In this document: one piece after another, positions 1,675 to 48,182 of the stretch
How the letters are laid out: each line of letters begins with the position of its first letter
How positions within the stretch are numbered: position 1 is the first letter of the stretch
DNA from: Candidatus Tectimicrobiota bacterium
GTDB taxonomy: Bacteria; Tectomicrobia; Entotheonellia; Entotheonellales; Entotheonellaceae
Direction: 5' to 3'
Length of the DNA: 64,000 nt
NCBI GenBank assembly: GCA_026005175.1
Contig: BPKO01000003.1
Coordinates: 62,001-126,000, forward strand
Notes under the pieces: model-generated
Databases searched by the model: none
Seen by the model: the letters and a program-made list of their open reading frames with translations, nothing else
What the model was told of the DNA's origin: nothing
Position numbers and translations under genes: made by a program

Positions 1675-2151
1675 ATGGACATTCTCGTGCCGACGGACTT
1701 CAAACCTGGCTCCCGAGCGGCCCTGGAGCGCGCCTTGGCCAGTCTTGCCCCTGAAGGAGGGAAGATTTACGTCCTCCACGTCATTGACCAGCAGTTCGTC
1801 GAGCAGGCGGCGGCCCTGTTTCCCCCCGCCACCGCTGCCGAGGTGCGCACCCGCCTGGAGGCACAGGCACACCAGCACTATGCCAGGCTGGTTGAGGGGC
1901 TCGACAGCGGCCGTGCCGAGCTCGATTTCCTGGTTGTCGAAGGGGTGCCCTTCCTGAAAATCGTGCAGCTGGCGCGCGATTTTGACGTGGACCTGATCGT
2001 CATGGCCGCCCACCGCGGACCGGCTTACTTTGAAGAATTTCTCTTTGGCAGCACCACCGAGCGGGTAACCCGCATTGCTCCCTGTCCCGTGCTGATCGTG
2101 CCGGCAGCGGTGACACTCCAGGCAAGAACGTCCGGGCCAGCACGTTCCTGA
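1675..2151 (+). CDS. Universal stress protein, UspA family, divergent nucleotide motif (third of three)
   Basis: Usp-fold protein of 158 residues: MDILVPTDFKPGSRAAL at the start, a helical centre, and PCPVLIVPAA at the end. The G-x2-G-x9-GS motif is altered to MAAHRGPAYFEEFLFGS. Both leading glycines are replaced and the segment is one residue longer, so ATP binding may be lost or changed. It follows the second usp gene by 13 bases behind AAGGAGGAGGT, the strongest ribosome-binding site of the three. It probably forms homodimers, or heterodimers with the upstream Usps. Confidence 0.85.
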   Translation: MDILVPTDFKPGSRAALERALASLAPEGGKIYVLHVIDQQFVEQAAALFPPATAAEVRTRLEAQAHQHYARLVEGLDSGRAELDFLVVEGVPFLKIVQLARDFDVDLIVMAAHRGPAYFEEFLFGSTTERVTRIAPCPVLIVPAAVTLQARTSGPARS

Positions 2152-2202
2152 CCGGTTTTTGACCAGAAAAATGCGCAGGAGACAGAAGCGGCACGCTCGG
2201 CC

Positions 2203-2231
2203 TTGCGCCTTGTCCTCACCCGTGCTACAAC
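2203..2231 (+). promoter_or_regulatory. Sigma-70-type promoter for luciferase-like monooxygenase
   Basis: TTGCGC (2203-2208), 17-base spacer, TACAAC (2226-2231), with TGC directly before the -10 as an extended -10 element. Transcription would begin about 40 bases before the ATG at 2278. Confidence 0.45.
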
Positions 2232-2277
2232 GCCCAGGGCAGTACGACGGTCACGCCTTGCAGAAAGGGCACAGGTG

Positions 2278-3327
2278 ATGGAATGCGGTCTCTTCCTCGA
2301 ATTTCCTCGCCGACCCGGCATGAGTGAAGCCGCGGCCTTTGCCGAGGGTTTTGCGCAGGTCGAGGCGGTCGAACGCTACGGCCTCGACGCCATCTGGCTG
2401 GCGGAGCTGCACTTCAGTCCCGAGCGCTCGGTGCTCGCCGCGCCGCTGGTTTTGGCCAGCGCCATTGCCGCACGCACCCGGCGCATCAAGGTCGGCCTGG
2501 CCGTGCTCGTCTTGCCCCTGAGCAACCCACTGCGCACCGCTGAGGAAGCGGCCACCGTCGACCACATCAGCCAGGGACGCCTGGAGTTTGGCGTAGGACG
2601 CAGTGGCTTTCCCATCACCTACGAGCGCTTTGGCATCCCGTATGGCGAGAGCCGCGATCGCCTCTTCGAGCAAATCGAGATCATCCGCCGCGCCTGGACT
2701 GAGGAGCGCTTTTCCTTCCGAGGCACCTATTACAGCTACGAGGATGTCACCGTCGTCCCCAAGCCCTACCAGCAGCCCCACCCGCCGATTCGCCTTGCCG
2801 TCAACAGCCCCGATACGTTTGCCCTGGCCGGACGCCTAGGACTTCCGATTTTCGTTGCCGTGCGCCTCGGCTCCCTCTCGGATCTCGTGGCCCCACTGCA
2901 CGAGTACCGCGCCGCATGGCGCGAAGCCGGGCATCCCGGCGAAGGCGACGTGGCCCTGCGCCTGCCGGTTTTTGTCGGTGAAACGCGCGAGCAGGCCCTG
3001 GCCGTGCCCCGCGAAAGCACCATGGCCTTTTACCGCTACTTGGGGGAGCGCCTGCTGGCCTCTGCCGCCCAGGCCGGCACGCGGGCCATCGAGGGACGCC
3101 AGGAACGCGGGCAGCGGCTGCAGACGCTGACGTACGAAGAAGCGCTGCGGGACAAGCTCGCTTACGGCACACCGGAGATGGTCAGTGAGCGCCTCCTGCA
3201 GCTCAAAGAAGCGCTCGGCCTCTCGGCCATTCTGGCGGAGATGAACTGCGGGCAGCAGATCGCGCACGAGCACGTGCTGGCTTCGCTGCGGCTTTTTGCC
3301 GATAAGGTGCTGCCTGCCCTGCGCTAG
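2278..3327 (+). CDS. LLM-class flavin-dependent oxidoreductase
   Basis: Bacterial luciferase-like monooxygenase of 349 residues, TIM-barrel fold using FMNH2 or F420. Recognised from MECGLFLEFPRRPG, the AELHFSPE segment, the VLVLPLSNPLRTAEEAATVDHIS block and GRLEFGVGRSGF, all typical of the family, plus a C-terminal helical region with GTPEMVSERLLQL. The ATG at 2278 is preferred over upstream in-frame codons because the barrel's first strand starts there. The stop codon shares the tetranucleotide CTAG with the convergent monooxygenase. Substrate unknown; family members act on alkanesulfonates, nitriloacetate, long-chain alkanes or F420-linked alcohols. Confidence 0.88.
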   Translation: MECGLFLEFPRRPGMSEAAAFAEGFAQVEAVERYGLDAIWLAELHFSPERSVLAAPLVLASAIAARTRRIKVGLAVLVLPLSNPLRTAEEAATVDHISQGRLEFGVGRSGFPITYERFGIPYGESRDRLFEQIEIIRRAWTEERFSFRGTYYSYEDVTVVPKPYQQPHPPIRLAVNSPDTFALAGRLGLPIFVAVRLGSLSDLVAPLHEYRAAWREAGHPGEGDVALRLPVFVGETREQALAVPRESTMAFYRYLGERLLASAAQAGTRAIEGRQERGQRLQTLTYEEALRDKLAYGTPEMVSERLLQLKEALGLSAILAEMNCGQQIAHEHVLASLRLFADKVLPALR

Positions 3328-4326
3328 AGGCCGCGCAGGCGCTCGTACGCTTTCCGCACTTCCCGCGGGTCATCGCCTTCAACCCGCACCGTGTGCAGGT
3401 CGACCCCGGCCTCTGCTTGCGCGGCCAGCCGCTCGCAGCAGGCTTCCAGCGGACCGGCAAAGTGTAGATTGTCGACCAGGGCATCGGGCACGGCCGCGGC
3501 GCCGGCCAGATGCCCGCCGCGTTCCCACGCCTCCTGGATGGCCTGCACTTCCCGCTCGTAGCCCAGGCGCCTGAGCTGCTCGCGGTAAAAGTCCCCCATG
3601 CGCACGACGTAGAATGCCAGGGTAGCTTTGGCCTCCTGGCGGGCCCGCTCGACGTCTCGCGTCACCGTGACGCTGCCCGGAGAGCGTACCACGACGTGCT
3701 GCGGGTCGCGACCGGCCTCGCGCACCAGCTGGCGGAAGGCGGCAATTTCCTGACCCAGCTGCGGCAGAGGAATCATCACCGGCATCCAGCCGTCGGCGAT
3801 GCGGGCAGTCTGGGCCACGCTTTTGGGGGTGAGGGAGGCGATAAAAATGGGGATGCTGCGCCGCAGCGGCGTAAAGCGTAGCCGGAAGCCCCGCTCCAGG
3901 CGAAAGAGCCGGCCGTGGTAGATTAGAGGCTCACCGGCCAGGATGAGGCGAAGGATCTCGACGTATTCGCGCAGGCGGGTTAACGAGGGCTGGAAGGGCA
4001 CGCCGTGCCAATGCTCGATGACGCGAGGGCCGCTGGTGCCCAGGCCGATGACCACGCGGCCTCCCGAGACCTCGTCAAGAGTAGCAAAGTGCTGGGCCAG
4101 CGCTGCCGGCGTGCGCGAGTAGACGTTGACGATACCAGTGCCGAGCTTGATGTGCCGGGTCTCGCGTGCCAGCAACGTGAGAATCGTAAAGCAGTCGCGG
4201 CCCCCAGGCTTCGGGCACCCACACCGTCTCCACGCCCGCCTCATCGGCCAGGCGCACGCGGGCACACGCCTGGGCATAGTCCATGGGACCTTGCCAGTTG
4301 AAGCTGATGCACAGGGCTCGCGTCAC
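3324..4326 (-). CDS. LLM-class flavin-dependent oxidoreductase, interrupted by a +1 frameshift
   Basis: Luciferase-like monooxygenase of about 333 residues, split between two frames. The N-terminal part (ALCISFNWQGPMDYAQACARV to WVPEAWG) runs from 4326. The rest (RDCFTILTLLARETRHIKLGTG, then GGRVVIGLGTSGP, ending RKAYERLRGL) is in the next frame. The shift falls in the C5 run at 4201-4205; four Cs would restore EAWGRDCFTI. The GTG start overlaps the stop of the ArsM-like gene (GTGA), implying translational coupling. The layout resembles F420-dependent family members, but the cofactor is not certain. Sequence error is likelier than gene loss, since both halves are intact. Confidence 0.82.
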
Positions 4327-5120
4327 GCCGCTTTCCCTCCTTTGCCCTCAGCGCCGGGTTTGATGGCCCGAATTTTGACGCTCAGTACCCCGGGGCGCCA
4401 GCCGGTAGCTTCTACCACCTCCACCGGATCAAAACCTGCCCGCCGCAGGGCCGCCACGTAAGCCTCCAGCGGAATGGCGCCCCCAAGGCAGCACGTCCAA
4501 GCGTCCAGGGTGCGCAGCGCCGCCGGAAGCTCGCCTTCGGTTACCAAATCGGCGACCATCAGCCGGCCGCCAGGCCGAAGGACGCGGAAGGCTTCGCAAA
4601 AGACGCGGTCTTTGTCAGGGGCCAGGTTGATGACGCAGTTGCTGAGGATAACGTCGACAGAGGCCTCCGCCATCGGCATGGCCTCCATCTCGCCCTTGCA
4701 GAACAAGACATTGGCAATGCCGAGGCGGCGCTGGTTTTCCCGGGCTTTCCCCAGCATGGCATCGGTCATGTCGAGGCCGATAACCCGCCCTGCTGGCCCC
4801 ACTTTATGTGCGGCGAGGAAGCAGTCAAGCCCTGCCCCCGAGCCCAGATCCAGCACCACCTCACCGGGGCGCAGCGCCTCGATGGCCAGTGGGTTGCCAC
4901 AGCCGGCAAAGGACTCCACCACGGTGGCCGGCACTTCAGGACCGAGCAGGTCGAGCTCGTAGCCATACTGCGCGACGCGTGCCTCGCCTTCAGGGGCCGG
5001 CGCCTCGCAGCAGGAAGCCGAGCGCTGGGCCACCTGCGTGTAGCGCTCCCGCACCGCCCGCTTGATCTCTTCTGCTGCCAGGGGCAACGCCGCTTCCGGC
5101 ACGCGCGTTTCGTTTTCCAT
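4323..5120 (-). CDS. arsM: Arsenite S-adenosylmethionine methyltransferase (ArsM)
   Basis: Class I SAM methyltransferase of 265 residues that converts As(III) to methylated arsenicals. The SAM motif DLGSGAGLD lies at residues 91-99. The family's arsenic-binding cysteines are present: a Cys pair at 37-38 (SASCCEAP), Cys162 in NCVINL and the pair 210-211 in WTCCLGGAI. The C terminus is the usual GWRPGVLSVKIRAIKP domain. GGAGG lies just before the ATG. It is the upstream gene of a two-gene unit with the frameshifted monooxygenase, overlapping it by GTGA. No arsR or arsenite pump is visible nearby. Confidence 0.9.
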   Translation of the reverse strand: MENETRVPEAALPLAAEEIKRAVRERYTQVAQRSASCCEAPAPEGEARVAQYGYELDLLGPEVPATVVESFAGCGNPLAIEALRPGEVVLDLGSGAGLDCFLAAHKVGPAGRVIGLDMTDAMLGKARENQRRLGIANVLFCKGEMEAMPMAEASVDVILSNCVINLAPDKDRVFCEAFRVLRPGGRLMVADLVTEGELPAALRTLDAWTCCLGGAIPLEAYVAALRRAGFDPVEVVEATGWRPGVLSVKIRAIKPGAEGKGGKAA

Positions 5121-5239
5121 AACTATCTCCTCCCTTGCACGGTCCTTTGGGTGCCGCTAGGCCCGTGGTGTCCGGCACGCACGGCCTTTCTTGCCAGGCA
5201 AAGAGAGCCGGCCTACACCTGGGCATACAGGCCAGCGCG

Positions 5240-5248
5240 TGGTATGCT
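5240..5248 (+). promoter_or_regulatory. Extended -10 element upstream of RNase D gene
   Basis: TGGTATGCT fits the extended -10 pattern TGnTATnnT about 40 bases before the ATG. No convincing -35 hexamer is seen. Confidence 0.3.
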
Positions 5249-5286
5249 TGTGAAAGAGCATAGCCTGGAGCGCTGCGTTTGTCATC

Positions 5287-6495
5287 ATGCGAGAGACCGA
5301 AGCCGCCGCCTTACACACCACCCCTGTTCTCTATCTCTCCACCCTGTCGGCTTTAGAGCGTTTCTGTGCCCAAGCGCGCGCCGAGGGCCGGGTGGCCCTC
5401 GACGTGGAATTTGTCCGCGAAGTGTCGTATGCCCCCAAGTTGGCCCTGGTGCAGCTGGCCACCACCACGGCCTGCGCCATCGTGGATCCGCTGGCCGTCG
5501 CCGACCTCTCCCCCCTGGGGGCGCTGCTGGCCGCCCCTGAGGTGGAAAAAGTGCTGCACGCTGCCCATCAGGACCTCGAGGTGCTCTACTGGCACACCCA
5601 AGCCTTGCCGGTGCACCTCTTCGATACCCAGATTGCCGCGGCCTTTGCCGGCCTGGGCGAGCAGCAGTCCTACCCGCGCCTTGTCGAACGCCTGCTGGGC
5701 GTCGCATTGCCCAAAAACGAACGCAACTCCGACTGGCTGCAGCGGCCGCTGACCCCGCAACAGGTAGCTTACGCCTTAGACGATGTACGCTACTTGCTGC
5801 CGCTTCATGACCATCTTTGCCTGCGGCTACACGAGCTGGGGCGGCTGGCATGGGTGCGCGAGGAATGTGCCCGCTTTGAAGAGCCAGAACGCTACCGGCG
5901 CGATGCGCAGCGGCTGCTTCACCGCATTCGCCGCCGGCACTCCCTCTCCGCTCAAGGGATGGCCGTCCTCCTCGAGCTGGTTCTGTGGCGTGACGAGGAA
6001 GCACGGCGGCGCGACCGGCCTCCTGGCAGCGTCTTGCGCGACGAGGCGCTGGTCGAGATCGCCCGCAAAGCGCCGCGCAGCGCGGCTGAGCTGCGCAGTC
6101 TGCGCCGGCTGCCACAACGTGAGGTGGAGCGTTCCGAAGCCGCCTTGCTGGCTGCCGTGGCACGCGGGCTGGCCAGAGGCAGCGTGGAAGTCCCTGCCGC
6201 AGCGCCGCGGCTGCGACTCTCCGAAACAGAAGAACTGGCGGTGAAATTCCTCGAAGTGTGCCTGCGTCTTTTGTGCAAGCGCGAAAAACTCCCCCCTTCC
6301 CTGGTCGCCACCCGCGCTGAGCTCGAGAGCCTGGTGCGCCAGTACCGCCGCGGACAGCGGGCGGCGCATCCGCTGCTCAGCGGCTGGCGCCGGGAACTGG
6401 TAGGAGAAGAGCTCCTGGCCGTGCTGCGCGGGCAGCGCAGCGTCCAGCTTGACCCCGACAGCGCGAGAGTCTGCCTGACGCCGCACCACGCCTAG
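5287..6495 (+). CDS. rnd: Ribonuclease D-like 3'-5' exonuclease with HRDC domain
   Basis: DEDD-family 3'-5' exonuclease of 402 residues for tRNA and structured-RNA 3' trimming. The exonuclease domain (about residues 15-185) shows ALDVEF (Asp39, Glu41), the second acidic site in AAHQDLEVLYWH, and the Y-x3-D motif in VAYALDDVRYLLPL. An HRDC domain follows at roughly 210-290 (WRDEEARRRDRPPGSVLRDEALVEIARKAPRSAAEL). A further C-terminal helical region (residues 300-400) completes the usual bacterial length. The TAG stop overlaps the convergent cyclase-family gene in CTAG. Symbol by family similarity. Confidence 0.85.
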   Translation: MRETEAAALHTTPVLYLSTLSALERFCAQARAEGRVALDVEFVREVSYAPKLALVQLATTTACAIVDPLAVADLSPLGALLAAPEVEKVLHAAHQDLEVLYWHTQALPVHLFDTQIAAAFAGLGEQQSYPRLVERLLGVALPKNERNSDWLQRPLTPQQVAYALDDVRYLLPLHDHLCLRLHELGRLAWVREECARFEEPERYRRDAQRLLHRIRRRHSLSAQGMAVLLELVLWRDEEARRRDRPPGSVLRDEALVEIARKAPRSAAELRSLRRLPQREVERSEAALLAAVARGLARGSVEVPAAAPRLRLSETEELAVKFLEVCLRLLCKREKLPPSLVATRAELESLVRQYRRGQRAAHPLLSGWRRELVGEELLAVLRGQRSVQLDPDSARVCLTPHHA

Positions 6496-7421
6496 AAAAT
6501 GGCCACCGGATGACAGGGAGAGCCGGTGCTGCCCGCAAGGCGCAGCGGCATGACGGTAAAGAGAAACGTGTAGCGACCCTCTTCCTGGCACGCGGCCACC
6601 AGCCGTTCGGGATACGTATTGTCGATGAGGCAAAGCCCGAGGAGGGGAATCGCCAGGTGCACACCGAACTGGAACCCCTCGTAGCCCACCGGGCGTTCGT
6701 CCATGAGATCCCAGGCCAGCGCTGCGACGTCGTGCTCGCGCAACCACTCGAGGCAGGCAATGTGCAGCCCCGGACGCTGCGCTGCTGCCGGAATCCCCTG
6801 GGGGGAGACGGCTGCGGTGGCATCAGCAGCGGTGGCCGCTTCGTAGGCTTCCCTGCCGCTGCGCACCACCACTGCGTCGCCGGGCTCGATGGTGACGCCA
6901 GCGCGGGTAGCCGCCGCATCGAGGTCTAGCGGCGTGACCGGCTTGCCGACCGTCACATAGCCTTCCTCGCGCAGCGAAGCCACATCGAGCAGCACCCCCC
7001 GCGTCACCACGCCATCGAACCAGGCATCCAGCGCACCCCAAGTGGCCCCGCCGTGCCGGATACTGGTGTCAAAGGGGCGGCCGTTGTAAAGCTGGCCGCG
7101 GTAATCGACGTGGCAGAGGGCGTCGATGTGGGTCACGGCGTAGCCGTGGTAAATCATGCCCACGTAGTCGATGGCGGCGCGGGAGCTACCGCGCTGCAAC
7201 GGGTAAAGCATGTGGTAGTCCAGGGCCGGCTGCGGGGTGATGTCCCGGGCCAGCGAGACGACACGGCCGCTGCGGGCCAGCTGCACCGCTGCTGCCCGTT
7301 TGGCGGAGGTGATGAGGTTGAGGGTGCCACGCTCGTCGTCTTTTCCCCAGCGCCCCCAGTTGTTGAGGCGCTCGAAGTAACGCTCCACTTCGGCCTGTGT
7401 GGGTGGGATCCAGGTGCTCAT
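6492..7421 (-). CDS. Cyclase family protein (kynurenine formamidase-like metal hydrolase)
   Basis: Cyclase superfamily (KynB-like) protein of 309 residues. The metal-binding H-x-D-x3-H motif is seen in THIDALCHVDYRG, preceded by the RDITPQPALDYHMLYP segment and followed by RGVLLDVA and the EPGDAVVVRSGRE strand, all characteristic. It begins with WIPPTQAEVERYFERLNNWGRWGKDDERGTLN, a start common to the longer isomerase-like or isatin-hydrolase-like subgroup. It lies 119 bases downstream of livF on the same strand, so it could be expressed with that transporter. The substrate, probably an N-acyl or lactone compound, is undetermined. Confidence 0.82.
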   Translation of the reverse strand: MSTWIPPTQAEVERYFERLNNWGRWGKDDERGTLNLITSAKRAAAVQLARSGRVVSLARDITPQPALDYHMLYPLQRGSSRAAIDYVGMIYHGYAVTHIDALCHVDYRGQLYNGRPFDTSIRHGGATWGALDAWFDGVVTRGVLLDVASLREEGYVTVGKPVTPLDLDAAATRAGVTIEPGDAVVVRSGREAYEAATAADATAAVSPQGIPAAAQRPGLHIACLEWLREHDVAALAWDLMDERPVGYEGFQFGVHLAIPLLGLCLIDNTYPERLVAACQEEGRYTFLFTVMPLRLAGSTGSPCHPVAIF

Positions 7422-7540
7422 CGGTGGTTTCCGGCCTCCTCATGCGGGCTGGGTAAGACACGCGCTGCTGCCCGCCCTGCCCCTCTCCAAGCACATCCCG
7501 CGGCTGGGCAGCCATCCCTCAAGGTTTCTACATGCTGCGG

Positions 7541-8350
7541 CTAGGCGAGCCAGCGCTTGCGCCGCTTGTAGTGTTTGACGTCGCGGTAGCTGCGGCGCCC
7601 CGCAGCACTCAAGCCCAGGTAGAACTCTTTCACATCTTCGTTCTCGCGCAGTGTCGCCGCATCGCCGTCGAGCACCACGCGGCCGTTTTCCAGAACGTAG
7701 CCGTAGTCGGCGATGCGCAGGGCCATGGTGGCATTTTGTTCTGCCAGCAGGAAGCTGACACCCTCTTCTTTGTTGAGGCGCCAGACGATTTCGAAGATCT
7801 CTTTGACCAGCTGGGGAGCAAGCCCCATAGAGGGCTCGTCAAGGAGAATGAGGCGCGGCCGCGCCATGAGGGCACGGCCGATAACCAGCATCTGCTGTTC
7901 ACCGCCTGAGACATAGCCGGCTTTGACGTGGCGCCGCTCGGCCAGACGCGGAAAGTAGCTGTAAACCATCTCCAGGTCGCGCTGCACGGCCGCTCTCCCG
8001 TCACGGCGCGTGTAGGCCCCAACGAGCAGGTTCTCCTCACAGGTGAGGTGGCCAAAGGGCCGGCGCCCTTCCATTACCTGGACGATGCCGCGCCGCACCA
8101 GCGTCGAGGAATCCAAGTGCTCGATGCGCTCGCCGCGGTACTCGATAGTCCCCTTGGTCACTTCGCCGCGTTCGGCCCGCAGGAGGTTCGAGATGGCCTT
8201 CAGCGTGGTGGTTTTTCCCGCACCGTTGGCCCCGAGGAGGGTGACGATTCCCCCCTCGGGGACGTGCAGCGACACGCCCTTCAGGACCAAGATGACGTGG
8301 TCGTAGACCACCTCGATGTTGTTGACCTGAAGCAGCGGCTGCGGGCTCAT
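7541..8350 (-). CDS. livF: Branched-chain amino-acid-type ABC transporter ATP-binding protein LivF (locus 1)
   Basis: ABC ATPase of 269 residues. Walker A is GANGAGKTT, the signature SGGEQQMLVIGRAL, Walker B LILLDEPSMGLAP, and the H-loop region is replaced by LLAEQNA as is normal for LivF. A C-terminal tail (AAGRRSYRDVKHYKRRKRW) extends beyond the typical 235-residue LivF. It pairs with LivG at the inner face of the membrane. It is the last transporter gene of a minus-strand unit, starting 5 bases after the binding-protein gene ends. Confidence 0.92.
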   Translation of the reverse strand: MSPQPLLQVNNIEVVYDHVILVLKGVSLHVPEGGIVTLLGANGAGKTTTLKAISNLLRAERGEVTKGTIEYRGERIEHLDSSTLVRRGIVQVMEGRRPFGHLTCEENLLVGAYTRRDGRAAVQRDLEMVYSYFPRLAERRHVKAGYVSGGEQQMLVIGRALMARPRLILLDEPSMGLAPQLVKEIFEIVWRLNKEEGVSFLLAEQNATMALRIADYGYVLENGRVVLDGDAATLRENEDVKEFYLGLSAAGRRSYRDVKHYKRRKRWLA

Positions 8351-8355
8351 GGCAG

Positions 8356-9675
8356 TTACTGCTCGGCGGCGCAGTTGCGCGGCGTGATGTTGTTTTCCTT
8401 GGCGTACTCCAGGGCCGCCTTCTCGATCATTGGACGCACCACTTCACGCATGGGGGTGATCCAGTCGCTGACTTGCTTCCACGTCTCCCCGGTCCACTGC
8501 TGGATGAACACCGGACCGTTGCCTTCGTGGTCTTCGCAGGTGATTTTGATGGGCCGCACGAAGCCGCCAAAGCCGATCTGCTTCAGGTAGTCTTCGGTGA
8601 GGTGCAGGTTCTCAAAGCCCCAGCGCACCTCCTCGCCGCCGACAGCCCGGTTGCCATACTTGCGCATCGCGGTGCGGATGGCTTCGGTGTCGTACATGGC
8701 GTTGACCAGGCCGCGGTTGTACAGCACTTCGCCGAAGTTGTTGGCTTTGGCCTCGGCCAGGTTGCCGTTGTAGACGTATTTCAGGATGTCCCGGTGGACG
8801 TCAAAGTCCGTTCCCACGCCGTGGAAGTTGCCCGCCTTGTAGCCAATGGCGTCTTTGCCGGCCGGCACCACGTCCGACTCGCTCCCTGACCACCACACGC
8901 CAATGAAGCGGTCCATGGGATAGCGAATGGCGGCCGCCTCTTTGATTGCCACCTGGTTCATCACCCCCCAGCCCCACATGAACACCCAGTGTGGGCGATA
9001 GCGGCGGATCTGCAGCCAGGTGGCCTTTTGCTCCTGGCCGGGATGGTCGACGGCCAGCAGCTGCAGGTCATAGCCGTACTGCTCGGCCAGCACGGTGAGC
9101 GTCGGAATGGGCTCCTTGCCATAGGGACTGTTGTGGTACACCAGGGCGATGCGCTTGCCCTTCAGCTTGTCCATCCCTCCTTCTTGCTCGCCAACATACT
9201 TGATAAACGCCGAGGCCTGGCTCCAGTAAGTGGTGGGGAAGTTAAACGCCCAGGCAAACACGCGCCCATCGGCGGCAGCCGTCTGCCCGTAGCCCATGGA
9301 GTGAATGGGGACCTTGTCGATCGGCGCGCGCGGGATGAGCTGGTAAGTAATGCCGGTGCTGTAAGGATTCACCAGCGCTGCCCCCTTGGGTCCCTTGTTC
9401 TTCAGCTTCTCGTAGCACTCCACCCCCAGCTTGGTGTTGTACTGCGTCTCGCACTCCTCCCAAGTGATCTTCACGCCGTTGATGCCACCGTCGCGGGCGT
9501 TGAGCAGCCGCAAGTAGTCACGGAAGCCGTTGGCCGCGGGAATGCCGTTTGGCGCATAGGGCCCGGTGCGGTAGACGAGCATGGGGATGAAAATTTCCTC
9601 CTGCGCCAGGGCCGGGGCCACCAGCACGCTCAGGGCCAGGATGGCCACTGCAAGGCGTTTTAGATTGCGCCACAT
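8356..9675 (-). CDS. ABC transporter substrate-binding protein (HAAT/Liv type, locus 1)
   Basis: Periplasmic binding protein of 439 residues. The signal peptide is hydrophobic (LAVAILALSVLVAPALA) with a signal peptidase I site ALA-QEE and no lipobox. The Peripla_BP_6 fold is shown by MLVYRTGPYAPNGIPAANGFRDYLRLLN and VNPYSTGITYQLIP. The ATG at 9675 is preferred because AAAAAGGAGGACGATTT sits just before it. It lies between livM and livF. The full operon with a CoA ligase suggests the ligand is a carboxylate rather than leucine, but that is inference. Confidence 0.9.
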   Translation of the reverse strand: MWRNLKRLAVAILALSVLVAPALAQEEIFIPMLVYRTGPYAPNGIPAANGFRDYLRLLNARDGGINGVKITWEECETQYNTKLGVECYEKLKNKGPKGAALVNPYSTGITYQLIPRAPIDKVPIHSMGYGQTAAADGRVFAWAFNFPTTYWSQASAFIKYVGEQEGGMDKLKGKRIALVYHNSPYGKEPIPTLTVLAEQYGYDLQLLAVDHPGQEQKATWLQIRRYRPHWVFMWGWGVMNQVAIKEAAAIRYPMDRFIGVWWSGSESDVVPAGKDAIGYKAGNFHGVGTDFDVHRDILKYVYNGNLAEAKANNFGEVLYNRGLVNAMYDTEAIRTAMRKYGNRAVGGEEVRWGFENLHLTEDYLKQIGFGGFVRPIKITCEDHEGNGPVFIQQWTGETWKQVSDWITPMREVVRPMIEKAALEYAKENNITPRNCAAEQ

Positions 9676-9723
9676 AAATCGTCCTCCTTTTTCTCTAGTT
9701 CCGACCCGTCCCTGCAACTGCTG

Positions 9724-10800
9724 TCAGTACGGGAAAGGCCACCGCCGCAGCTTCTCCTTGGCAATCTGCCACAGGCGGGCCAGGCCAAGGGGCTCGACGA
9801 TGAGGAAAAACACAATCAGGCCGCCAAACACCATCGCTTCCACTTCTTTGGCGAGGTCTACCGGCACCTCGATGCCGAACAGCCGCGGCACGTTGGTGAG
9901 AAAAATCGGCACCAGGACGATGAACCCGGCCCCCAGGATGGAGCCCAGAATGCTCCCTAAGCCGCCGATGATGATCATGAACAGCACTTCAAACGACACG
10001 GTGATGTCAAAGGCCAGGGTTTCTACGCTGCCCAGGTAGAGGCTAAACACCAGGGCACCGGCGAGGCCGCAGTAAAACGAGCTCACGGCAAACGCCGAAA
10101 GCTTGGTGGTGAGCGGCCGAATGCCGATGATTTCGGCCGCCACGTCCATGTCGCGAATCGCCATCCAAGTGCGGCCGATGTTGGTCCGCACCAGGTTCTT
10201 GGCCAGCAGGGCAAAGACGACCACGAAACTCAGGGCCACGAGGTAGCGCACCGTGGCGGTGGCCTCCGGCCCGGTGACCATCACCCCCAGGAACGTGCGC
10301 GGCGGCATGGTGATGGTGCCTGAGGGGTTGTAGTTGAAAAACCACGGCACGCGGTTAAAGAGCCAGATGAGAAAGAACTGCGCCGCCAGGGTGGCCACCG
10401 CCAGGTAGAGCCCTTTGATGCGCAGGCTGGGAAGGCCAAAGAGAATGCCAACCCCGGCGGCAAAAAGGCCAGCCAGGAGAAACACGACGATGACGTTGAG
10501 CTCGGGGAACGCCGTGGTGAGCTTGTAGACGGCGTAAGCGCCCACCGCCATAAAGCCGCCGGTGCCCAGCGAGAGCTGCCCGGCATAGCCGGTGAGCAGG
10601 TTAAGGCCGATGGCGGCAATCGAAAAGACCAGCCAGGGAATGAGCACCGCTTGCAACCAGTACTCGTTGGCCACCAAGGGCACGACGACGAAGGCCACGC
10701 CCAACGCGGCCACCACGAACCAGCGGTCCTGGGCAATGGGGAAAATCGCTTGGTCGCGACGGTAGCTGGTCTTGAACTGCCCGGTTTCGCGATAAATCAC
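9724..10800 (-). CDS. livM: Branched-chain amino-acid-type ABC transporter permease LivM (locus 1)
   Basis: Inner-membrane permease of 358 residues with about nine hydrophobic segments. Typical LivM marks are GLNLLTGYAGQLSLGTGGFMAVGAY, GLYLAVATLAAQ, the cytoplasmic coupling region AIRDMDVAAEIIGI and the C-terminal GGLGSILGSILGAGF. A hydrophilic N-terminal extension of about 25 residues precedes the first helix. It starts 2 bases after livH ends, in the same operon. Confidence 0.9.
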   Translation of the reverse strand: MIYRETGQFKTSYRRDQAIFPIAQDRWFVVAALGVAFVVVPLVANEYWLQAVLIPWLVFSIAAIGLNLLTGYAGQLSLGTGGFMAVGAYAVYKLTTAFPELNVIVVFLLAGLFAAGVGILFGLPSLRIKGLYLAVATLAAQFFLIWLFNRVPWFFNYNPSGTITMPPRTFLGVMVTGPEATATVRYLVALSFVVVFALLAKNLVRTNIGRTWMAIRDMDVAAEIIGIRPLTTKLSAFAVSSFYCGLAGALVFSLYLGSVETLAFDITVSFEVLFMIIIGGLGSILGSILGAGFIVLVPIFLTNVPRLFGIEVPVDLAKEVEAMVFGGLIVFFLIVEPLGLARLWQIAKEKLRRWPFPY

Positions 10801-29942: not shown

Positions 29943-29967
29943 AAAAATGTACTCTGACCCCATTTTT
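29943..29967. repeat. RAYT-associated palindromic repeat, copy 1
   Basis: Arms AAAAATG (29943-29949) and CATTTTT (29961-29967) enclose an 11-base loop TACTCTGACCC. It is almost identical to the three copies around the RAYT gene 17 kb away. It sits 3 bases after the FAH stop codon and directly before the GAGGAGGGGAG of the next gene, so its hairpin could affect ribosome access. Confidence 0.85.
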
Positions 29968-29978
29968 GAGGAGGGGAG

Positions 29979-31431
29979 ATGAAGACGCTGATTGCTGGCG
30001 GCTGGGTGGTGGCGTACAACGGCACCACCCACGAGGTGTACGAAAACGGCGCCGTGGTTTTTGAGGACGACCGCATCGTGCACGCCGGCGGCCCTTACGC
30101 CGGCCCCCGTGGACCAACGCCTGGAAGCGCGCGGCATGCTGGTCACCCCAGGCTTTATCAACACCCACGTGCACACCTCGGGCAACGGCGGCGATTACTT
30201 GCTGCACGACACGGTCAAGACCGACTACCGCACCGCCAACTACTTGAGTTTCGCCGCCCCGCTGCAGGGCAAGATGGTGCCCCCCACGCCGGAAGAAACG
30301 GCGGCGCTGCGTGCCTTCGTCATGCTGCACGCCCTCAAGCAAGGCTCGACCACTATTATCGACGTGGGCGGCTGGCGCGGCGACTGGGACGGCTACGCCC
30401 GCCTGGTGGAGACGCTGGGGGTGCGCGTGTACACGAGCCCGCCCTTTCGCGACCGCAACACCTACACCGACGCCCAGGGCCGCATTTACTATGCCACCGA
30501 CACCGCGGCCGGCGAGCGCGGCTTGCAAGAAGCGATTGCTTTTATCCGCACGTACGACGGCGCTGCCGGCGGACGGCTGCGCGGCTTGCTCAACGCCGCA
30601 CAAGTCGAGACGTGCAGCGTGCCGCTGCTGCGCGCCTGCAAAGACGCCGCCCGCGAGCTGGACGTGCCGGTGCACACCCACGCCGGGGGCAACCTGCTCG
30701 AGTTCCAGCGCATCCTGGAAGAGTACCGCAAGACGCCGATCCAGTTCCTGGCCGACCTCGACTTCCTCGACGAGCGCACCCTCATCGGCCACGGCGTCTT
30801 TACCACCGCCCACCCCTGGACCCACTACCCCTTTGGCGACGACTTGCGCCTGCTGGCCGAGCGCGGCGCCACCGTCAGCCACTGCCCCTACAAGTACGCC
30901 AAGATGGCCATTACCCTCCACTCCTTCCAGCGCTACCGCGATGCGGGAGTAAACGTGGCCTTGGGCACCGACACGTACCCCATGGACATGGTGGCCGAGC
31001 TGCGCTGGGCTTCGATGCTGGCCAAAATCACCGACCAGAACTACCTGGCCGGGCAGCCGCGTGACGTCTTCCACGCCGCCACGCTGGCCCCCTGCCGCTT
31101 CTTGCGCCGCGACGACCTGGGCCGCCTGGCCCCAGGCGCCAAAGCCGACCTCCTGCTGATTCGGCTCGACCACCTGGGCGCCGCCTTCTATGTCGACCCC
31201 ATCAAGGCGCTGGTTGACTTTGGCTGCGGCCGCGACGTCGACACGGTGATCGTCGACGGCAAAGTGCTGGTTGCCGGAGGCCGGGCGCAGCACGTGGACG
31301 AGGAGGCCATCTACGCGCGGGCCCGCGAGGCCACGCAGCGCTACTGGGAGCGGCTGCCCGCCTGGCACTGGGCCGGCTGCCGCGTGGAGCAGATCGTGCC
31401 GCCGGCGTTTCCGCTACACCGCGCGCCGTAA
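29979..31431 (+). CDS. Amidohydrolase family protein (TRZ/ATZ or chlorohydrolase-like), interrupted by a +1 frameshift
   Basis: Metal-dependent deaminase or chlorohydrolase-like enzyme of about 483 residues. KTLIAGGWVVAYNGTTHEVYENGAVVFEDDRI starts in one frame. After GGPYAGP the frame changes to VDQRLEARGMLVTPGFINTHVHTSGNGG; removing one C from the run at 30104-30108 joins them. The metal ligands are seen in NTHVH, VHTHAGGN, LIGHGVF and ALGTDTYPMD. The C-terminal composite strand (LGRLAPGAKADLLLIRLD) is typical. GAGGAGGGGAG directly precedes the ATG. It follows the FAH gene and may share its promoter. Confidence 0.87.
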
Positions 31432-45535: not shown

Positions 45536-46753
45536 TTAAATTACCCCTTCCTGGCGCAACCTCTCCAGCTCGGCAGCCGACAAGCCAAGCAGGCCACCCA
45601 GGATCTCCTCGTTGTGCGCGCCCACCTCCGGCCCCGGCCACTCGGTGCGGCCTGGGGTTTCGACGAGCCAGGGCAGGATGGCCGGCAGGCGCAGGGGCTT
45701 GCCGTTGACTTCCACTTGCTGGAAGAGGCCGCGGGCGTGGAAGTGGGGATCGCGCAGCATGTCCTCGACGCTGTAAATGGGGCCGGCGGGCACCGCGGCG
45801 GCTTCCAGGCGCTGCAAGACCTCTGCGGCATCCAGAGAGGCGGTCCAGGCGGCGATGGCGGCATCGATTTCCGCTTCGTGGGCCACGCGCCCGGCATTGG
45901 TGGCAAAGCGGGGATCGGCGGCCATCTCCGGGCGGCCAATGGCGTGCATGAGGCGCCGGAAAATGGCATCGGCGTTGCCGCCAATGATCACGTACTTGCC
46001 GTCGCGGCAGCGGTAGGTATTGGTCGGCGCAATGCCGGTCAGCGTCGACCCCGAGGGGCCGCGCACCACGCCGGCGCCGTCGTACTCGGGAACCACCGCC
46101 TCCAGGACGTTGTATACGGCTTCGTAAATGGCCACGTCCACCACCTGACCGCGGCCGCCAGCCGGCTTCTGGCGTTGCACGTAAGCGAGCAAGATGCCGA
46201 TGACGGCGTGCAGGCCGGCCAGGGTGTCGCCCAGGCTGAGGTTAGGGCGCACCGGCGGCTGGCCGGGGAAGCCGTTGAGGTAGCGAAAGCCGCCGATGCC
46301 TTCGCACACCGCAGCAAAGCCGGGCCGCGCCGCGTACGGCCCCGTCTGCCCGTAGCCCGAAATGCGGGCGTAGATGAGGCCGGGGTTTTCTTGCTTTAGG
46401 TCTTCGGGCCCCAGGCCCCACTTTTCCAGGGTGCCGGGGCGGAAGTTTTCAATCAGCACATCGACCCGCGCCGCCAGCTGCCGAGCCAGCTGGCGACCCT
46501 TTTCGGTATGCAGGTTGAGGGTGATGCACTTTTTGTTGCGCCCCAGGCTACGCCACCAAAACGAGGTGCCGTGCTCGTCCAGCACGCGCCAGCCGCGCAG
46601 GGGGTCGCCGCTGCCTGGCGGTTCGACTTTGATCACCTCGGCGCCAAAGTAGCCCAGCACGCAGCCGGCAAAGGGTCCGGCGATCAGCTGTCCCAGCTCC
46701 AAGACACGCATCCCCTCCAGGGGGCGCGGCGAGAAAATGGGGTCAGAGTACAT
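45536..46753 (-). CDS. CaiB/BaiF family CoA-transferase, start codon within a RAYT repeat
   Basis: Class III CoA-transferase of 405 residues: PLEGMRVLELGQLIAGPFAGCVLGYFGAEVIKVEPPGSGDPLRGW, then SLGRNKKCITLNLHTEKG, VDVLIENFRPGTLEKWGLG and the Asp-containing LSLGDTLAGLHAVIGILLAY. These enzymes move CoA between carboxylates. The best start is the ATG at 46753, inside the palindromic repeat: it adds MYSDPIFSPR before the family start and has GGAAGAA upstream. The alternative ATG at 46711 would cut off PLEG. It overlaps the RAYT end by 11 bases and lies upstream of the ThDP enzyme. Confidence 0.88.
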   Translation of the reverse strand: MYSDPIFSPRPLEGMRVLELGQLIAGPFAGCVLGYFGAEVIKVEPPGSGDPLRGWRVLDEHGTSFWWRSLGRNKKCITLNLHTEKGRQLARQLAARVDVLIENFRPGTLEKWGLGPEDLKQENPGLIYARISGYGQTGPYAARPGFAAVCEGIGGFRYLNGFPGQPPVRPNLSLGDTLAGLHAVIGILLAYVQRQKPAGGRGQVVDVAIYEAVYNVLEAVVPEYDGAGVVRGPSGSTLTGIAPTNTYRCRDGKYVIIGGNADAIFRRLMHAIGRPEMAADPRFATNAGRVAHEAEIDAAIAAWTASLDAAEVLQRLEAAAVPAGPIYSVEDMLRDPHFHARGLFQQVEVNGKPLRLPAILPWLVETPGRTEWPGPEVGAHNEEILGGLLGLSAAELERLRQEGVI

Positions 46754-46757
46754 TTTC
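46733..46757. repeat. RAYT-associated palindromic repeat, copy 2 (contains RAYT stop and CaiB start)
   Basis: Arms GAAAATG (46733-46739) and CATTTTC (46751-46757) with an 11-base loop GGGTCAGAGTA, the inverse orientation of copy 1. Read on the minus strand it encodes the last residues ENVL and stop of the RAYT, and in another frame the first codons MYSDPIF of the CoA-transferase. Confidence 0.85.
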
Positions 46758-47447
46758 TTCCAGGGGCTTGGGCGGGCGGCCGCGGCGGGGGCGCACCAGA
46801 CGCCGTCCCCGCAGCTGCGCCAGCGCTTCCTGAAACTGCTCCGAGCCAATGGCCCGGCCTTGGCGGGTCGCTTGCCGAATCTGCTCCCACTCCTCGGCTT
46901 GCCAGCTTTCCTCCATCCACGCCCGGTACGCCCGGCATCTGGCCTCAGCGTCCGCCCCCAACCCGGCGTACCACGGGTCCTCATCCACCACCGCATCGGG
47001 AACGCCAAGGGCGCGGCAGCGATAACTGCTCCAGCGATACTCGGCGGGATGCGTCACCAGGCCAGCACGCACGGGGTTGAGCTCGATGTAGCGGCCGCAC
47101 CTGAGCAAATAGGCATCCCGGCTGATCACCGCGCTTTTGAAGCGCCCTTCCCACAGCGTCCCAGATCGCTGGTAGGTCGCATTGATGTACCGCACATACC
47201 GCCGGCCCACGCTCTGCATGAAGCGCCCTAAGGCCTCAGCCTGCGGCGGTTCGACAATGAGGTGGACATGGTTGGTCATGAGGACATAGGCATAGATCCG
47301 ACACTGACACGCAAGCTTCGCTTGCTGCAAGCACGCCAAATAGAAACTGTAATCGGCCTCGGTAAAGAAAATCCGCTGGCGGTTGTTCCCGCGCTGAATG
47401 ACGTGATGGGGATAGCCAGGCAGCACAAGCCGTGGTTGTCGAGCCAT
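46743..47447 (-). mobile_element. REP-associated tyrosine transposase (RAYT, Y1_Tnp domain)
   Basis: Single-copy HUH-type transposase of the TnpA_REP class, 234 residues. Beginning PRLVLPGYPHHVIQRGNNRQRIFF, the HUH motif is TNHVHLIVEP (His60, His62), and the tyrosine region is SVGRRYVRYINATYQRSGTLWEGRFKS. RAYTs process short palindromic REP elements rather than moving themselves. Three copies of a 25-bp palindrome flank the gene and a fourth lies at 29943. The C-terminal ENVL and stop lie in the flanking copy. It is an intact coding gene; GGAGGGG lies just before the ATG. Confidence 0.9.
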
Positions 47448-47461
47448 TCGCCCCTCCACCC

Positions 47462-47486
47462 AAAAATGTTCTCTGACCCCATTTCT
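47462..47486. repeat. RAYT-associated palindromic repeat, copy 3
   Basis: Arms AAAAATG (47462-47468) and CATTTCT (47480-47486; one mismatch) around TTCTCTGACCC. It lies 15 bases upstream of the RAYT ATG, hence in its leader, and in direct orientation with copy 4. Confidence 0.85.
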
Positions 47487-47513
47487 GGAGAGGAACGTCC
47501 CTCCTGGCCCGCC

Positions 47514-47538
47514 AAAAATGTTCTCTGACCCCATTTTT
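47514..47538. repeat. RAYT-associated palindromic repeat, copy 4
   Basis: Arms AAAAATG (47514-47520) and CATTTTT (47532-47538) around TTCTCTGACCC. It is separated from copy 3 by 27 bases that hold a weak palindrome (GGAGAGGAACGTCCCTCC). Two directly repeated units next to a RAYT are a typical REP doublet. Confidence 0.85.
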
Positions 47539-47574: not shown

Positions 47575-48006
47575 CTACGAAACGATCTCGACAAGGGTGA
47601 TCTCGAACACCAGGTCTTTGCCGGCCAGCGGGTGGTTGGCGTCCAGGGTGATGGAGGCCTCGTTGACTTCGGTCACCAGCACCGGGATGGCGGCGCCATC
47701 GGGTTGGGTCATCTGCAGCCGCTGGCCCACGTAGGGCTCAAGCCCCGGCGGCAGCTGCTGCCGCGCCACCTCGAACACCATCTCTGGCCGGTGCGCGCCG
47801 TAGGCCTGGTCCGCGGAGACGGTTTCGGTTTTCGTCTCCCCAACGTGCATCCCCAGTACTGCCTGCTCAAAGCCCGGGATGAGCTCGCCCTGCCCCAGGG
47901 TGAACTCCAGCGGCTCGCGCTGCAGCGAAGAGTCAAAAGTCGTGCCGTCGATGAGCTTGCCGGTATAATGGACCTTGACGGTGTCCCCGATTTTTGCTTG
48001 TACCAT
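47575..48006 (-). CDS. FKBP-type peptidyl-prolyl isomerase (SlyD-like)
   Basis: FKBP-type prolyl isomerase of 143 residues with an inserted chaperone (IF) flap: AKIGDTVKVHYTGKLIDGTTFDSS, then LEFTLGQGELIPGFEQAVLGMHVGE, the insert SADQAYGAHRPEMVFEVARQQLPP, and the closing TLDANHPLAGKDLVFEITLVEI. The motif NHPLAGKDL is characteristic of SlyD. There is no His-rich tail, so nickel delivery is unlikely; a folding-catalyst role is expected. The second ATG (48006) is preferred since AGGAG lies 6-7 bases before it. Confidence 0.93.
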   Translation of the reverse strand: MVQAKIGDTVKVHYTGKLIDGTTFDSSLQREPLEFTLGQGELIPGFEQAVLGMHVGETKTETVSADQAYGAHRPEMVFEVARQQLPPGLEPYVGQRLQMTQPDGAAIPVLVTEVNEASITLDANHPLAGKDLVFEITLVEIVS

Positions 48007-48182
48007 GATCATCTCCTACGGAAAGGGAAACCCTGCGTGCGCCCAGGTGGGAGAAGGAAGGCATCCCGACGGGGACCACCACCGTCCCAACAAGGTGTGC
48101 AGATTGTCTTAATGGTCGCCGATTCGGCGTCGGGTGTCAAGCCACAACGGCACGGCGCTGCGCTTCCTGGCGCAAGAGCCCT

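Follow-up and report, generated by a model that had tools for sequence, protein, structure and literature searches.

A TIRtron-type terminal repeat as the stop codon of its transposase gene and the probable start codon of a neighbouring CoA-transferase gene

TIRtrons, elements with TIRYT transposases, carry terminal inverted repeats (TIRs) with the motif GGGGWSAS, and cases in which the repeats overlap the 3' end of the transposase gene have been catalogued as "3'ov" by Di Nocera et al. 2013 (PMC3733652). Most TIRYTs are placed in subclass 2.1 of TnpAREP, whose members have a C-terminal HTH-like domain (Quentin et al. 2018, PMC6006769). The window analysed here, a stretch of 64,000 nucleotides from a Candidatus Tectimicrobiota bacterium, contains a RAYT-type transposase gene with short repeats on both sides, and judging from their sequence these repeats are the TIRs of a TIRtron/TIRYT and not REPs of the GTAG or CGTC type. 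We consider it quite likely that a TIRtron sits between an FKBP-type gene and a CoA-transferase gene, its 3' repeat giving the RAYT its stop and the CoA-transferase its start, with the two probably coupled. An element of this kind is already known; what is new is the recurrent stop-start relay.

The RAYT/TIRYT gene occupies 46743..47447 on the minus strand and encodes a Y1 HUH transposase of 234 aa, from an ATG at 47447 to a TGA (46745-46743) that lies in the downstream repeat. The protein matches Pfam Y1_Tnp (E = 2.4e-13) and NCBIfam NF047646 (REP-associated tyrosine transposase) with 80.3 bits, just above the cut-off of 80, and its only match to the E. coli TnpAREP 4er8 is sub-threshold (E = 0.15). 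As in a TIRYT, the Y1/HUH core holds the HUH motif (NHVHLIV) and the catalytic tyrosine, here in the motif YIELNPVRAGLV; the NHVH and YIELNPVRAG motifs line up across the RAYTs in our alignment. The C-terminus stops after GRPPKPLEENVL, and no HTH-like domain was found there by a Pfam search with E values up to 1. We do not assign the protein to subclass 2.1, which is marked by long proteins with that domain, because it is without it and falls with the short RAYTs, the long ones being on the other side of the tree. The RAYTs sharing the repeat are not resolved as one clade in this phylogeny.

The inverted copies of AAAATGGGGTCAGAG(A/T)ACATTTT that bracket the RAYT score 20, while none of 941 shuffled pairs reaches 16, and GGGGTCAG fits the consensus GGGGWSAS of PMC3733652. 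A survey took in 30 distinct RAYTs from the source genome, its relatives and the contigs that carry the repeat. In 24 of them the gene is bracketed by inverted repeats with a score of at least 16; about half of the RAYTs have an exact GGGGWCA at one end or both, most of the others being one base off. A TGA stop in the repeat core was also seen in six other RAYTs that we examined (L052, L053, L054, L057, L061 and L068), so the stop within the TIR is common in the family and is the ordinary half of the finding. The source genome encodes another RAYT, apparently frameshifted, whose inverted repeats (GGGGTCAGGTCTTGAA) are a different TIR type (L029, C4:305634-308921), and a third with perfect 23-bp TIRs, AAAAAGGGGACAGGCTACTTTTT (L027, C8:26186-29524).

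The repeat is 23-25 bp long, AAAATGGGGTCAGAG(T/A)ACATTTT, and the four copies that a sequence-only reading of the window had pointed out are all present. One lies at the boundary between RAYT and CoA-transferase (46734..46756, plus strand, GGGGTCAGAG). Upstream of the RAYT there is a copy inverted relative to it (47463..47484, minus strand), followed by a second one in direct tandem with a period of 52 bp (47515..47537, minus strand). The fourth is a solitary copy between two co-directional genes (29943..29967, minus strand), and an ATG at 29979 with its Shine-Dalgarno sequence is placed between this copy and the next gene. The same reading proposed a genome-wide search for the core and took a lack of further repeats as a reason to give the idea up; the copies are there. 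The source genome, G000, is an assembly of 14 contigs with 3.99 Mb and a completeness of 77%; it contains 27 occurrences of the 12-mer ATGGGGTCAGAG and 21 of GGGGTCAGAGNACA, with zero hits for the reversed-pattern controls. One of the 27 matches (C1:315472) is without the A+T arms and is probably due to chance. Our motif search of four relatives gave no repeat in G002-G004 and one variant in G001, so the family has expanded in the source lineage only, among the relatives compared. Elsewhere in G000 the repeats include inverted pairs and direct pairs besides singles, and direct pairs of the same 84-bp period with unrelated spacers are found at two unrelated loci (L008, C3:283.9 kb, and L017, C8:19.3 kb). 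A text search of papers for the repeat core gave nothing relevant among the matches listed, which concern animals or animal cells.

The repeats had been described as palindromic, with arms AAAAATG/CATTTTT. The A+T arms are indeed self-complementary, but the rest of the repeat is not, and the arms differ in length by copy (AAAATG/CATTTT at 46734-46756, AAATG/CATTT at 47463). Since only these arms pair, the hairpin is weak and unlike the stem of a classical REP: single copies fold as DNA with -1.5 to -4.7 kcal/mol, and some inverted pairs form long hairpins with -24.9 kcal/mol as DNA. Five of the six frames through the repeat are open, the sixth holds a stop, and either strand has an ATG; copies that abut a gene end would therefore be tolerated and can supply C-termini, stops or starts while the gene stays whole.

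Read on the minus strand, the 3' repeat is GAAGAAAATGTACTCTGACCCCATTTTC. One of its frames ends the RAYT with EENVL and the TGA at 46745-46743, and another opens the CoA-transferase with the ATG at 46753-46751 (MYSDPIFSPRPLEGMRVLELG), the stop and the start being joined in an 11-nt overlap, ATGTACTCTGA (46743..46753, minus strand). The sequence-only reading had recognized the ENVL-stop end and the 11-base overlap, and its likely CoA-transferase start, MYSDPIF, is very probably right, in view of its position 9 codons before RPLEG as in an orthologue; it had assigned the boundary to the second copy, and this must be corrected to the copy at 46733. The downstream gene (45536..46753, minus strand) encodes a CaiB/BaiF family III CoA-transferase of 405 aa with the N-terminus MYSDPIFSPRPLEG from the repeat. 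The protein covers positions 1-366 of the 366 in Pfam CoA_transf_3 (2e-125) and reaches no specific NCBIfam equivalog cut-off. Upstream of the element lies the gene of an FKBP-type PPIase (47575..48012, minus strand).

Comparison of sequences supports this CoA-transferase boundary well. Three genomes of the same family encode orthologues that are 80% identical and are without the element, with the N-termini MPSPDSEPTPATARPLDG, MPSSASEPNPATVRPLDG and MVAPTPNPTRPLEG. Their native ATG lies 9-13 codons before the conserved RPLxG; for the repeat ATG the distance to RPLEG is 9 codons, as in the orthologue with MVAPTPNPT-RPLEG. An FKBP-type gene is directly upstream of the orthologue in G002 and G003 with no element between them, though these neighbours (30-32% identical) may not be orthologues of the one in the window. 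At 80% identity of the relatives, the exact insertion borders and target-site changes at caiB are not readable. The in-frame position of the repeat ATG might be chance, any abutting gene being in frame about one time in three. The Shine-Dalgarno sequence of the ATG at 46753 is weak (-3.3 kcal/mol); this and the 11-nt overlap are suggestive of translation coupled to that of the RAYT.

The CoA-transferase could instead start at the ATG at 46711 (MRVLELG...), the only other one nearby, and the upstream in-frame repeat ATG would then be incidental. We regard this as unlikely. The sequence GGAGGGG directly before that ATG gives -9.8 kcal/mol, but it is part of the LEG codons and, at 1-2 nt, sits too close to the ATG. 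A start there deletes RPLEG, while the PLxG residues are kept in the three orthologues and in the aligned PDB homologues, which start at the RPLxG position or some residues from it with the motif retained. At this site the relatives encode valine, and their ATG is further upstream.

Initiation within the repeat seems to recur at a second junction of the same genome, where an inverted repeat pair lies between the genes of an alpha/beta-hydrolase (Pfam Abhydrolase_3) and dusA (NCBIfam PRK11815) at C5:106.36-106.42 kb. The hydrolase frame runs through the first repeat (KMGSEYIF) and a spacer (TEEARK) into the second repeat, where it ends (NVL-stop); the homologous hydrolases of two relatives have a different and shorter C-terminal tail. 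The ATG of the second repeat is the dusA ATG, and its overlap with the hydrolase stop is the identical 11-nt sequence. Since 16 residues precede LS(V/I)APMM in the DusA of this genome (MYSDPIFGQRRGRRWP) as in three relatives, the repeat ATG stands exactly at the native ATG position. A Shine-Dalgarno sequence, AGGAGG, lies 8 nt upstream of the dusA ATG (-11.9 kcal/mol) and sits in the loop of the hairpin formed by the repeat pair (as RNA -50.4 kcal/mol over 91 nt, z = -8.8), a structure that would have to be opened by translation of the upstream gene.

The dusA junction also bears on another reading, in which the CoA-transferase has been cut off from its leader by the element and is a decaying or silent gene, with the frame through the repeat open by chance. 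The genome has three further CaiB paralogues, which could compensate for such a loss. Against it, the 405 codons are intact without stops and 80% identical to three orthologues, the start is at the orthologous distance, and the identical relay is found at dusA, a conserved tRNA-modification gene; we find this reading quite improbable.

The start in the repeat can be followed beyond this genome. An exact 23-mer scan gave matches in Alteromonas, Burkholderiales, Nitrospirae and other contigs. Two Alteromonas genomes have about 50 copies each of TGGGGTCAGAGTACATT, and the Alteromonas RAYTs are the closest that we found to the window RAYT (48-49%). Directly downstream of the Alteromonas RAYT there is a gene for a recQ-like helicase (DEAD, Helicase_C, RecQ_Zn_bind) with the N-terminus MYSDPNILQQLFGFSAFREGQ. 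Its frame is closed by a stop 18-48 nt upstream, no start lies between the two, and no further Met comes until residue 69, behind the helicase motif GSGKS, so the repeat ATG is the only possible start. In L129 the two genes overlap, the RAYT stop and the recQ start sharing TAATG. In Alteromonas the element is not a clean insertion: between conserved flanks it stands in place of about 187 bp of intergenic DNA.

Thirteen related species, one supported clade (95/99), form a series for this gene. The RAYT is present in eight and absent in five, the two groups being interleaved on the tree, and the recQ start is in frame throughout: MYSDP with the RAYT, and MSSAP, MSSDP, MPSAP, MPSNH or MHSDH without it. 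In L131, which has the RAYT, the native ATG is kept behind the repeat, and in more distant species the protein starts with MTTDYSS or similar. The starts without RAYT match the repeat at 12 to 16 of 20 bases, which would suit a relic of the repeat as well as a native start that only looks like it. The sequence-only reading had called the repeat domesticated as a translation start, which for caiB, seen in one genome, may be so; the best case for lasting use of a repeat-borne start is the Alteromonas recQ and not caiB. In a BioC-like methyltransferase of Alteromonas (L150-L160, L033, L038 and L044) the repeat is in frame in the middle of the protein (K[M/K]YSDPIF) as an exact or near-exact match of at least 18 bases. 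The length is unchanged relative to most homologues, which have Y-P-D/E-x-x-F at the site; the repeat there is a replacement and not an insertion.

Most other copies in G000 make no starts: many are just behind a stop codon or before an intact Shine-Dalgarno sequence, and several have a native Shine-Dalgarno sequence and ATG downstream. The length of an open frame counts for little by itself here, as 5% of random positions stay open for 345 codons or more. The ATG of a chromate-transporter gene (PF02417; L011, C5:96953-99964) adjoins an inverted repeat pair, with no upstream Shine-Dalgarno sequence left. An XPD-like helicase gene (DEAD_2, Helicase_C_2; L020:67-1524) takes its last residues and stop (MGSEYIF-stop) from the repeat. 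In a Rhizobium-labelled MAG contig (L031:454) a UbiE-like methyltransferase gene, recognized by eye, has a repeat ATG in frame about 10 codons before its likely native start, which would give an optional N-terminal extension. At L082 (C3:391500-403500) genes for Uma2-like endonucleases (PF05685, minus strand) alternate with genes for heptad-repeat coiled-coil proteins (plus strand) that have a hydrophobic N-terminus and a TM segment; a variant repeat, GGGGTCAGAGTCCTTTTTT, occurs there in seven direct copies at 2123-9856, and each gene is near one of them.

We propose that the TIRtron consists of a TIRYT-type Y1/HUH transposase, its own inverted recognition repeats and dispersed solo, tandem and inverted-pair copies, and that the RAYT would recognize the GGGGTCAG-type TIRs as ssDNA and spread them by ssDNA transposition. 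The element would have arrived between the FKBP-type gene and the CaiB-type CoA-transferase gene, where it now fills the junction. Initiation of the CoA-transferase would then take place at 46753, probably by termination-reinitiation from the RAYT, and some neighbour genes may later come to depend on the repeat for a start or a stop. A broader idea, which we hold only tentatively, is that the repeat could be a portable translational relay: ATGTACTCTGA would stop the incoming frame and start the gene behind it, so that repeats of this TIR family could come to rest at a start codon or directly between co-directional genes with both genes still expressed, and host genes would retain the start once the transposase has gone, as the Alteromonas recQ series suggests.

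A bacterial gene gaining a new start codon or an overlap with its neighbour is rarely caught in the act. Here one mobile repeat makes the same stop-start overlap at two unrelated junctions and the start of a recQ-like gene in another lineage; short mobile repeats can rewrite the beginnings and ends of genes. The related species with and without the transposase are a natural series for the study of repeat-born boundaries and translational coupling, and with the Alteromonas species repeat-born starts can be put to a direct test. At repeats of this kind, automatic gene calling may set a start or a stop in the wrong place.

Compared with the TIRtrons of PMC3733652, the locus shares the RAYT-like Y1 transposase, the flanking terminal inverted repeats with GGGGWSAS, the possible overlap with the transposase 3' end, and the dispersed singles, dimers and clusters, here 21-27 TIR copies in the genome with inverted and direct pairs. 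Unlike in those descriptions, the 3' TIR also carries the start codon for the unrelated gene behind it, and the passages and papers that we consulted yielded no such stop-start relay. With REPtrons/REPINs and TnpAREP (RAYT) the locus has in common a Y1/HUH protein, inverted copies around its gene and multiple copies near gene ends, and repeat-borne stop codons are shared with REPs (TAG in GTAG REPs); it differs in having no GTAG guide, a weak single-copy hairpin and A+T arms. A canonical REP/REPIN, with its hairpin of the GTAG type, is a very improbable identity for the repeat; we reject this reading although the repeat is short, dispersed and RAYT-linked with inverted pairs, some of them folding into long hairpins, because the tags GTAG, GTGG and CGTC are all absent, there is no GT[AG]G 5' to a stable hairpin, single copies fold weakly, and GGGGTCAG matches the TIRYT consensus. 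Of the earlier label REP/RAYT, the tie of a multi-copy repeat to a RAYT-type transposase stands, and the REP class gives way to the TIRtron TIR to which the motif belongs. With the Rickettsia RPE elements and the REPs within ORFs, as treated in PMC3733652, the locus shares mobile repeats that give codons, N-termini included; unlike those repeats, which extend or interrupt a gene, the repeat described here apparently serves as an initiation site and as the stop of the preceding gene.
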